Positions 45,146-48,111 of a stretch of DNA of 64,000 bases are shown here, in pieces (the first letter of the stretch is position 1; the number at the start of each line of letters is the position of its first letter). The translations under genes and the position numbers were made by a program. The DNA is from Chryseobacterium aurantiacum (GTDB taxonomy: Bacteria; Bacteroidota; Bacteroidia; Flavobacteriales; Weeksellaceae): the NCBI RefSeq assembly GCF_003020585.1, contig NZ_PXUE01000001.1, positions 806,001-870,000 of the forward strand, written 5' to 3'. The notes below the pieces were generated by a model. That model was not told the DNA's origin. It ran no database searches and saw only the letters and a program-made list of their open reading frames with translations.

Positions 45146-45327
45146 TTCTAAATATTTTTTGAAAACTGGTATTTCAAATATATAAAATATGAGCCTATGT
45201 TGTTGTTAATAAAATGATAAAATTAGAACCCTGATACTATTTTGCACCTTTTTTATACGATTGTGCTATGTTTTTTTCGGGTTGTACATGTAATTTGGCA
45301 TCATCGAAAAATATAAACAATACTAAT

Positions 45328-46857
45328 ATGAGCACAATTACAGAACCAAGATCAACGACTCTTTTACAGCGTCCAGAATTTAAAGACAGATACGATAACT
45401 ATATTGGCGGTAAATTTACGCCACCGGTTAAAGGACAATATTTTGATGTAGTTTCACCAGTGGATGGTAAAAAGTTCACTCAGGTAGCCCATTCATCCAA
45501 GGAAGATTTGGATCTGGCTGTAGATGCAGCAGAAAAAGCCTTCCAAACCTGGAAAAATACATCATCTACAGAAAGAAGCATTATCCTCAATAAGATTGCA
45601 GACAGAATAGAACAAAATCTGGAATATCTTGCTACAGTAGAAACCATTGATAACGGTAAGGCGGTAAGAGAAACTCTGGCTGCAGACATGCCTCTTGCAA
45701 TAGATCATTTCAGATATTTTGCATCCGTAATTCGTGCAGATGAGGGATCACATAATGAATTGGATAAAGACACTGTGTCCTTAATTGTACATGAGCCTCT
45801 GGGGGTAATCGCACAGATCATCCCTTGGAACTTCCCAATACTGATGGCTGTTTGGAAACTTGCCCCAGCATTAGCGGCAGGAAATTGTGTAGTCTTAAAG
45901 CCTGCAGAAAGTACGCCGGTGTCTATCATGGTGTTAATGGAACTCATCGGAGATTTATTGCCGGCAGGAGTCATCAATATTGTGAATGGCTTTGGAGCAG
46001 AACTGGGAAGAGCATTGGTTACTAATCCTAAAGTTGCCAAGGCAGCATTTACAGGATCTACAGCTACAGGACGTTTAGTGATGCAATATGCAACCGAAAA
46101 CATCATTCCTGTAACATTAGAGTTAGGAGGAAAGTCACCCAATGTATTCTTCAATTCTGTGATGGATGCAGACGATGAATTTTTAGATAAAGCCATTGAG
46201 GGAGCTGTACTTTTCGCCCTTAACCAAGGAGAAATTTGTACATGTCCGTCAAGGTTACTGGTTCAGGAAGGAATTGCAGATGCCTTTATTGAAAGAGTAG
46301 TAGAAAGAGTAAAGGCCATTAAGGTAGGAAACCCACTGGATAAAACGGTAATGATGGGAGCACAGGCTTCTCAGATCCAAAAAGACAAGATATTGTCTTA
46401 TATTCAACTAGGAGTAGAAGAGGGAGCAGAAGTTTTGGTAGGAGGAAATGTAAATAACCTGGGAGAAGACCTTGAAGACGGATTTTATATCCAGCCAACT
46501 ATTTTTAAAGGAAACAATAAGATGAGGATCTTTCAGGAAGAAATCTTTGGTCCTGTGTTGGCATTTACAACCTTTAAAGATGAAGAAGAAGCCATAAAGA
46601 TAGCCAATGATACCATCTACGGACTAGGAGCCGGAGTTTGGACTAGGGATGCCCATCAGCTGTACAATATTCCGCGTCAGATTGAGGCAGGAAGAGTTTG
46701 GGTCAATCAATATCATTCATATCCGGCAGGAGCACCTTTCGGAGGGTACAAACAGTCTGGAATAGGAAGAGAAAATCATAAAATGATGCTTGATCATTAC
46801 CGTCAGACTAAAAATATGCTGATTTCCTACAACAAAAACAAGTTAGGTTTCTTTTAA
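45328..46857 (+). CDS. NAD-dependent aldehyde dehydrogenase
   Basis: A 509-residue enzyme that oxidises aldehydes to acids. It has the nucleophile Cys304 in [11 protein letters not shown], the general base in [31 protein letters not shown] for the cofactor site, and [14 protein letters not shown] near the end. It resembles the ExaC/AldB acetaldehyde group. The start at 45328 begins the conserved part; the open frame from 45268 adds 20 residues without a conserved motif. Confidence 0.94.
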
Positions 46858-46870
46858 TATTAATTTTAGG

Positions 46871-46997
46871 ACGTGCCCGATTGCCTTGGCTTTATCCAGG
46901 GCAAAACGGTCGGGCTATGCAGGGCTTCATTTCATTTCGTGCTTCATTGCATTCTGCACCGGCTCGTTCCTCGCCGCCCTTACTATCCCTCACGCAA
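46871..46997. repeat. GC-rich structured intergenic element
   Basis: A GC-rich island in AT-rich surroundings between the aldehyde and alcohol dehydrogenase genes. GCCCGA (46875-46880) pairs with TCGGGC (46910-46915) around a nested 9-bp stem, TTGCCTTGG / CCAGGGCAA (46881-46889, 46896-46904). A second domain pairs AGGGC (46921) with GCCCT (46976) and encloses GTGC / GCAC. It ends CTATCCCTCACGC. It looks like a dispersed intergenic repeat of Flavobacteriia, but I have only one copy here. The ORFs that cross it are not convincing. Confidence 0.65.
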
Positions 46998-47076: not shown

Positions 47077-48111
47077 ATGATTCCAAAAACAATGAAAGCT
47101 GCCGTCGTTCAAGGCTACGGACAGCCCCTGAAAATAGAAGAAGTACCCGTAAGAGTACCCGGTAGATATGAAGTTCTTGTGAAAGTAATAGCCTGTGGCG
47201 TTTGTCATACAGACCTGCATGCTGTAGATGGAGACTGGCCTGCTAAACCCAAAATGCCCCTTATTCCGGGACACGAAGGAGTAGGTATAGTAGTAGCTTG
47301 CGGACCAGAAGCCTTTGTAAAAGAAGGTGATGCAGTAGGAGTTCCCTGGCTATACAGCGCTTGCGGTTGCTGTGATTATTGTATCACGGGATGGGAAACA
47401 CTTTGTGAGGCCCAAAAAAATGGAGGGTATAGCGTAGATGGCGGCTTTGCAGAATATGTCATTGCAGATTCCAGGTATGTGGGACATCTAAAATCCAATG
47501 TTAACTTCTTGGAGATTGCTCCTATTTTATGTGCAGGAGTAACTGTTTATAAAGGACTCAAAGAAACAGAAACAAAACCTGGAGAGTGGGTCGCCATTTC
47601 AGGAATCGGAGGACTGGGACATGTAGCAGTTCAGTATGCAAAAGCAATGGGAATGCATGTTGCGGCCATTGATGTAGCAGATGATAAATTGGAATTGGCG
47701 AAAAAATTGGGTGCTGATCTTGTGGTAAACGCAAAAAATACAGACCCCGGAGAATATTTGCATAAAGAAGTTGGTGGCATGCATGGTGCATTAATTACAG
47801 CGGTTTCACCTATTGCCTTTAAACAGGGAATAGATGTTCTGAGAAGAAAAGGAACCATTGCTTTGAATGGACTGCCTCCCGGATCTTTTGAATTACCGAT
47901 TTTTGAAACAGTTTTAAAAAGAATAACGGTAAGAGGCTCTATTGTAGGAACCAGAAAAGATATGCAGGAAGCTCTGGATTTTGCCAATGAAGGATTGGTA
48001 AAAGCAACTGTAACTGCAGCAAAACTCGAAGATATTAATGATGTCTTTGATAAAATGAAAAAAGGACAGATTGATGGACGGATTGTGTTGGATATTGCAA
48101 ACTCAAATTAA
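47077..48111 (+). CDS. adhP: Zinc-dependent alcohol dehydrogenase, AdhP type
   Basis: A 344-residue NAD-dependent enzyme. The catalytic zinc site is visible ([23 protein letters not shown]), as is the structural zinc site with four cysteines ([15 protein letters not shown]), and the Rossmann motif [17 protein letters not shown]. It interconverts primary alcohols such as ethanol with aldehydes; the neighbouring aldehyde dehydrogenase would take the product further. It belongs with the DUF779 gene downstream. Confidence 0.93.

Follow-up and report, generated by a model that had tools for sequence, protein, structure and literature searches.

Folded single-stranded DNA is recognised at the ends of IS200/IS605 elements and at integron attC sites, and structure is kept there while sequence varies. 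In a table of 2010 the motif Flavo-1 (RF01705) stands under column heads that are presumably RNA, cis-regulatory and switch. Its row reads y, n, n in the table portion of that paper (PMC2864571). Rfam lists the Flavo-1 branch without a function. Passages of an F. psychrophilum transcriptome paper report several 5' transcribed regions that coincide with Flavo-1 hits; in the same passages the hits lie sense or antisense alike, and many fall outside transcribed regions. Subclass 2.6 of the REP-associated tyrosine transposases (TnpA_REP) is reported in Bacteroidetes, with atypical structures flanking the genes and copies elsewhere in the genome (excerpts of Quentin et al. 2018, PMC6006769).

The window is the whole stretch analysed, 64,000 nucleotides of Chryseobacterium aurantiacum (contig NZ_PXUE01000001.1, positions 806,001 to 870,000). 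It holds a structured intergenic element between two dehydrogenase genes. The element is real, constrained and part of a wide family, of which Flavo-1 is the published branch. No description of it beyond Flavo-1 was found in the literature searched, which lay mostly outside subscription journals; a sequence-only reading of this DNA had called the role undescribed, and in that literature it is.

The element and its fold

Intergenic, starting 10 nt past the stop codon of the aldehyde dehydrogenase gene (Table 1). The downstream zinc alcohol dehydrogenase gene is followed by a DUF779 gene (Pfam). The two ends of the element lie near GCGTGCCC and CTATCCCTCACGC, as had been claimed, the latter being the end motif at 46983–46995. 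G+C content is 0.525 in the 120-base step over the element and 0.32–0.49 in the surrounding steps, so that the difference in composition seen by the sequence-only reading is there and is modest. No intrinsic terminator (G+C-rich stem with T run) lies inside the window element. No Rfam family is found in the window at gathering scores, and five weak matches near the element (E ≤ 10) are unrelated and below cut-off. At gathering scores 20 loci of the window's type yield only a tRNA. The minus strand is the best-folding strand and corresponds to the Rfam Flavo-1 strand.

Table 1. Features at the element, in window positions.
Feature	Position	Strand	Basis or remark
Aldehyde dehydrogenase gene	45268–46857	+	Pfam Aldedh 1.9e-162
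Whole element, three-way-junction fold	46868–46997	-	Covariance model 123 bits, E 4e-24; folding
P1 closing stem, arm 1	46872–46875		Pairs with 46991–46994
P2, variable hairpin arm	46877–46909		46877–46879 with 46907–46909; inner stem 46881–46889 with 46896–46904, read from the sequence of the window copy
P3a arm 1 (GGG and TA)	46912–46917		Pairs with 46984–46989; double change in L059
P3b arm 1	46921–46924		Pairs with 46977–46980
P4 mini-hairpin	46929–46935	-	ATGAAAT on minus strand; GNA loop, A-T stem here
P5 stem and inner mini-hairpin	46939–46959		46939–46942 with 46956–46959; inner 46946–46952 is ATGCAAT on minus strand
P6 hairpin	46961–46975		46961–46963 with 46973–46975; 46966 with 46970; two mismatches between
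P3b arm 2	46977–46980		Covariation
P3a arm 2 (conserved TATCCC)	46984–46989		Covariation
P1 closing stem, arm 2	46991–46994		Covariation
Zinc alcohol dehydrogenase gene, downstream	47077–48111	+	Pfam ADH_N, ADH_zinc_N

The fold is a three-way junction supported by covariation, with closing stem P1, variable hairpin P2 and a rod P3 bearing hairpins P4–P6. It was drawn by eye on alignment A1 and then scored against shuffles and slid controls. A1 comprises 40 selected copies: 6 of the 30 near-identical clade members L012–L041, and 34 others. Left out are L047, L054, L058, L060, L061 and L079, missed by the search pattern. The nested stems proposed from the sequence alone are real: 90.4% of cells are paired in the 40 relatives, both sides change in 18 of 33 pairs, the covariation score is reached by 0 of 500 shuffles, and slid controls all score far lower. 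By number of further pair types the alignment stands out less (53 of 500 shuffles reach that number). Unguided RNAalifold concurs in part, recovering P1, P2, P3, P4 and part of P6, not P5. The structure also holds in 34, 21 and 58 model-aligned copies, the decayed copy L079 not being among the 58. Alignments A2–A5 were fitted to the model, and their pair counts therefore lean towards it.

The fifth P1 pair (A46871/C46995) is lost in the window's clade. The last P3a pair varies between A-U, U-A and G-C. In L059, P1 and P3a are altered on both sides, with a compensatory P1 of GCGCC/GGCGC. P4 is swapped whole for another, long hairpin in L044–L046, L051 and L056. P6 is present in several unrelated sequences. 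The window minus strand folds into the junction; the plus strand instead pairs P2 with the P3a strand. Set against shuffles, neither strand stands out in stability (z -0.66 to -1.37), plus-strand folding alone being unremarkable (z -1.37 as RNA, -1.36 as DNA).

The P2 arm is variable in further ways. In L064, L066, L068, L069, L073 and L074 it has a second palindrome inserted, one nested in another, and some of these elements have palindromes of a similar type next to them. In L321, a dehydrogenase 3' region of one species, rod P3 is missing and P2 has turned into a 21-bp palindrome, perfect and with a loop of 2 nt; its one arm looks like a copy of its partner.

Family, dispersal and local constraint

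The window copy gives no match to Flavo-1 at the 42-bit gathering score nor at E ≤ 10. The Flavobacterium copy L107 matches Flavo-1 at 49.2 bits, on the strand opposite to model R1, and the pattern-bearing L340 at 42.5 bits, also on the opposite strand. On the element strand, Flavo-1 examples read CCCGCTAT...CTATCGGG without P2, against CGGGCTAT...CTATCCCT in the window type. Because of these two matches, and of the core shared with the Flavo-1 examples, the window element is treated as a P2-bearing branch of the Flavo-1 superfamily that lies outside the Rfam model. Flavo-1 itself is matched at E ≤ 0.01 in 12 of the 14 genomes that were searched, with as many as 127 matches in one Flavobacterium.

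The idea of a dispersed repeat holds for the family and less well for this genome, in which the window subtype is found once (BLAST at E ≤ 1e-3, covariance model at E ≤ 10), though Flavo-1 matches number 15 there (E ≤ 0.01). An end-motif scan of that genome gives 10 places with at most one mismatch, only the window being exact, and 11 in the reversed control. In a BLAST search of the kind that the sequence-only reading had proposed, 143 bases were run against 296 genomes of the bacterial family (E ≤ 1e-3, any position). Within the window's genus 127 of 149 genomes match; in other genera 14 of 147 do. Both the dehydrogenase and an element match are carried by 55 of 70 loci examined, and 15 matches lie elsewhere. 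Ten of these 15 (L063, L065, L066, L068, L069, L071–L075) stand 6–13 nt behind a gene of the same orientation with similar ends; it encodes an MFS protein in L065, the one of the ten run through Pfam.

Such blocks had been said to lie between genes in many Flavobacteriia. They do, and the family reaches further: model R1 (E ≤ 1e-3) matches at least 78 of 295 Bacteroidia genomes and at least 43 of the 155 genera sampled, lower bounds since only 11 candidates per genome were scored. With up to 150 candidates scored, genome G501 has 89 copies and G364 has 20. The pattern scan of named genomes gives at least 116 stretches, mostly in Bacteroidota. The element is thus neither unique nor conserved only as part of a coding region, the two outcomes that the sequence-only reading had set against itself.

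Model matches outside Bacteroidota, possibly assembly contamination, are found in Treponema socranskii (49.6 bits), a Treponema MAG (51.8 and 51.6 bits) and Aureimonas ureilytica (32.8 and 30.7 bits). In the Treponema MAG, matches to TD-1 and TD-2 RNA below cut-off lie near an element copy (L129:1712–1899). C4 antisense RNA (RF01695), suspected for the Aureimonas copies, is rejected, being unlisted at E ≤ 1 for six sources and at E ≤ 10 for the window region. The Chloroflexi pattern match L143, for which the model gives nothing at E ≤ 1, is taken as chance. The element pattern is also present in eleven viral contigs. One, L341, has three pattern matches together with transposition genes read as Mu-like; two of the three places also match Flavo-1 below cut-off. 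Plasmid and phage collections give no match to the window element at E ≤ 1e-3.

Orientation in the family is even. The 127 named-contig pattern copies are tandem sense (34), tandem antisense (31), convergent (24) or divergent (22), the rest lying at contig ends; genes were crudely called as long open frames, and 13 of the 127 copies fell inside such a frame. The 96 usable copies comprise 31 tandem sense and 26 antisense. Among these 96, a gene 3' end is found within 25 nt of the element's 5' side in 19 of 54 cases and within 25 nt of its 3' side in 7 of 49 (p 0.02). Each of the three bases 5' of the element is T in 77–85% of 86 copies (102 less 16, all from one MAG). A T run of at least 5 with a preceding hairpin is found on the 5' side in 11 of 86 copies and on the 3' side in 0 of 86.

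A comparison of occupied and empty sites had been proposed, and at one Flavobacterium site some species carry the element and others do not. The flank of L107 is matched in 113 of 121 genomes, and ten further loci were read. The element stands right after a terminator T run in the query L107 and in L349, L350, L352, L353 and L370. It is truncated after P2 in L351 and lies elsewhere in L356; none is visible in the stretch shown of L348, L354 and L355. A MITE would have terminal inverted repeats and a target-site duplication; P1 gives inverted ends of about 5 bp, and no duplication is seen by eye, the 3' end of the element being undefined. Conserved bases run past that end by about 16 in G501 and about 8 in G364, so that it is not fixed. 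The conserved tail is about CACNNGCCAGCCGCAC in G501 (L238, L257, L303–L320) and AACAGCC in G364 (L286–L299); it is not seen behind the window copy. The earlier suggestion of a non-autonomous mobile element is supported, for the family, by the even orientation, the occupied and empty site and the records from other phyla; no mobiliser was found.

Replication strand is dropped as an argument, the terminus pattern of G501 being unclear in G488. Among the G501 matches listed, 48 of 82 copies have the minus strand as lagging template (p 0.15). Within 1.25 Mb of the terminus, at the contig ends, 21 of 25 copies are so oriented and the rest of the genome's copies show no such bias; a control for the choice of that interval gives 38 in 20,000. 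Origin and terminus of G501 were inferred by skew from 20 sampled stretches. In G488 (31 Flavo-1 places) no such clear strand pattern is seen by eye.

At the dehydrogenase locus the element is far more conserved than the fourfold sites of the gene beside it. Compared with the window copy, the GACGTG clade is 42–53% identical at fourfold sites of the dehydrogenase and 92–95% identical in the element. The nearest orthologue (L013) has 72% and 98%, and more distant orthologues 33–44% and 67–87% (51 rows). Within the clade, paired columns are identical at 0.981 and unpaired at 0.902. In 47 of 51 orthologues the element lies sense, 7–22 nt behind the dehydrogenase stop, and in 4 at 117–274 nt. Among 27 genomes of the genus, most of them chosen because their hits were weak or absent, the dehydrogenase is present in 15 (E ≤ 1e-200). 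The full element is kept in four of the 15 at ≥88 bits (L322, L326, L328, L331); several of the other 11 have lost P3 and retain a P2-like hairpin, and in some no trace can be recognised.

Judged by these identities, the window copy is an old and strongly constrained copy at one place and no recent insertion, a point missed by the sequence-only reading. The identity of 92–95% against 42–53% is the strongest sign of a local function. Constraint of this strength on one copy calls for such a function; mobility does not explain it. The best guess is a structure at the two-gene junction that would act once the DNA is opened. That the copy is a neutral fossil of an old repeat, functionless at this locus, is scarcely credible given the same identities and the higher conservation of paired columns, even though the element can be lost, with remnants or nothing recognisable in 11 of the 15 dehydrogenase genomes.

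Proposed folded DNA and the alternatives

An RNA under selection should tolerate G.U on its own strand and not A.C. Changes at pairs are mostly two-sided, wobbles are few, and A.C is about as common as G.U. In A3 (136 named-contig matches) G.U number 28, A.C 26 and Watson-Crick pairs 2746, with one doubtful column dropped; in A5 (58 dehydrogenase copies) the counts are 4, 11 and 1623, with three dropped. The doubtful columns of A3 and A5 were chosen for dropping after the counts were known; undropped, G.U/A.C are 57/28 in A3, 34/31 in A1, 21/14 in A2 and 24/47 in A5, where 30 of the 47 A.C are one lost pair common to the clade. A4 (21 copies of G501) has G.U 4, A.C 0, Watson-Crick 628 and 94 cells changed on both sides. 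For comparison, the acceptor stems of 19 tRNAs, a small set, have G.U 6, A.C 1 and Watson-Crick 124.

When single sequences are folded, A3 and A5 give back more of the structure from the minus strand than from the plus strand, whichever parameter set is used (consensus-pair recovery with DNA parameters in A3, 136 copies, 0.65 against 0.41). In A4 the difference is significant with RNA parameters (p 0.02) and falls short of significance with DNA parameters (p 0.16). With DNA parameters the minus strand is the one of lower energy in 197 of 215 copies (A5 55 of 58, A4 20 of 21, A3 122 of 136), with RNA parameters in 147 of 215 (A5 37 of 58, A4 8 of 21, A3 102 of 136). A reversed-sequence control keeps most of this strand effect, which therefore comes from purines at unpaired places.

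Triloops in A5 are mostly TNC on the plus strand, that is GNA on the minus strand (P4 50 of 58, P5 48 of 58, P6 51 of 58). GCGNAGC occurs on the minus strand in 56 of 136 copies of A3 against 2 on the plus strand, in 26 of 40 against 0 in A1, in 7 of 21 against 0 in A4 and in 18 of 58 against 0 in A5. Two-pair mini-hairpins with minus-strand GNA loops exceed shuffles in A1, A3 and A5; in A4 they are no commoner than shuffles (13 against 15.6). Passages of PMC4686876 describe as extraordinarily stable those DNA mini-hairpins that combine a GNA loop with two or more G-C pairs. The window's own have A-T stems, without the G-C pairs of the published ultrastable ones. GNA loops support DNA and do not prove it, purine-rich loops being common in RNA too. 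Taken together, rare wobbles, minus-strand folding and GNA loops favour folded DNA over RNA.

The reading preferred here, tentatively and at a probability put somewhat short of even, is that the family works as DNA, is moved by a putative enzyme, and that the window copy was co-opted at a gene junction. The block belongs to a Bacteroidota-wide superfamily of dispersed nested-palindrome elements that includes Rfam Flavo-1. Its minus strand, when single-stranded, would fold into the three-way junction with hairpin loops reading GNA. The folded DNA would be the substrate of a putative DNA-processing enzyme, which may spread copies, in trans, into T-rich intergenic places. These places show the consensus ATTT before the 5' end and at times lie right behind a terminator. 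The copy between the dehydrogenase genes would then have been co-opted, probably as a gene-junction structure. Against the DNA reading stand the enzyme partner not found, the target-site duplication not seen by eye, the lead of the minus strand in two of three sets with RNA parameters as well, and dehydrogenase-bearing species without the element or with P2 only. The DNA reading is weakened somewhat, and the RNA alternative strengthened, by the missing G-C pairs in the window mini-hairpins, by the small share of copies preceded by a terminator (11 of 86), and by G501, which bears out the strand argument in part only.

A structured RNA is possible, on balance not the expected answer: a minus-strand sRNA, the class under which Rfam has Flavo-1, running antisense to the dehydrogenase genes, or else an element of the plus strand, in the 3'-UTR or between the cistrons, by which the aldehyde dehydrogenase message would be protected or processed. 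The sense placement close behind the stop in 47 of 51 orthologues suits it, as do the ten sense loci of the second site behind the MFS-type gene and the element behind dehydrogenases without an alcohol dehydrogenase in the examined stretch. RNA folding of the minus strand recovers the structure too. In several relatives a terminator-like hairpin, as read, lies further downstream, so the element may be transcribed, and the 5' transcribed regions of the F. psychrophilum passages point the same way. The even orientation of the family does not, nor do the Flavo-1 hits that those passages place sense and antisense alike and often outside transcribed regions. The wobbles are rare and not one-sided, the best-folding strand is antisense to the genes and not the mRNA strand, and the element has no terminator-like site. 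The RNA or mRNA-processing site of the sequence-only reading is accordingly the less supported of its suggestions.

A REP-type element moved by a TnpA_REP of subclass 2.6 is very unlikely. Palindromes dispersed in either orientation fit REPs, and the atypical flanking structures with genomic copies in the excerpts of PMC6006769 are suggestive; the search for the partner speaks against it. Read with about 1.5 kb of flank, the 27 Y1_Tnp loci from 11 of 14 genomes give no model match at E ≤ 1, so that no tnpA_REP flanked by the repeat was found there or in a further check of 7 loci, and 20 of the 27 have no Flavo-1 at gathering score. Four loci with the YIH[QN]NP motif in any frame (L267, L269, L275, L276) are without the core motif. 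At E ≤ 1e-3 no Y1_Tnp is found in G364, G541 and G546, which have elements, one of them 20 copies. The conserved positions of A1, read by eye, include no GT[AG]G foot.

There is a fair chance that the Flavo-1 kind was misjudged as RNA. The fuller claim, that Flavo-1 was misfiled both as RNA and as a fragment and is a branch of a Bacteroidota-wide family of single-stranded DNA devices (nested junctions with GNA-looped mini-hairpins, spread by a putative structure-reading DNA enzyme) of which individual copies, such as the window copy, are fixed by selection at gene junctions, is unlikely as a whole. Flavo-1, on record since 2010 as a likely RNA, appears to belong to a wider family, and its pairing statistics and loops speak for DNA. 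Should that hold, studies that treat Flavo-1 as an RNA have had the wrong molecule in view, and a system for reading folded DNA has gone unrecognised in Bacteroidota. The one strongly constrained copy, beside the dehydrogenase, is a clean locus for a deletion test.

Comparison with known systems

The STAXI motif resembles the element as a conserved folded motif, possibly of single-stranded DNA; it differs in being repeated pseudoknots near DNA-handling genes, and its authors lean to RNA (passages of PMC2864571). IS200/IS605 ends and attC sites would be alike in recognition as folded single-stranded DNA and in structure that outlasts sequence. They differ in their enzyme, no such gene having been found at the element. 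REP/BIME sequences with TnpA_REP (RAYT) are likewise short palindromes scattered between genes and presumed to function as folded single-stranded DNA. The element, by difference, is a three-way junction of about 80–170 nt with a conserved unpaired CTAT/ATAG in place of the GT[AG]G foot, and no transposase was found adjoining it. Flavo-1 (RF01705; Weinberg et al. 2010) is closest: dispersed in Bacteroidetes, with closing pairs, a 3-bp stem CCC/GGG or GGG/CCC (as read), a CTAT...CTAT internal loop and a distal hairpin. The Rfam model lacks the P2 arm and takes the opposite strand as RNA, whereas the window copy has P2.
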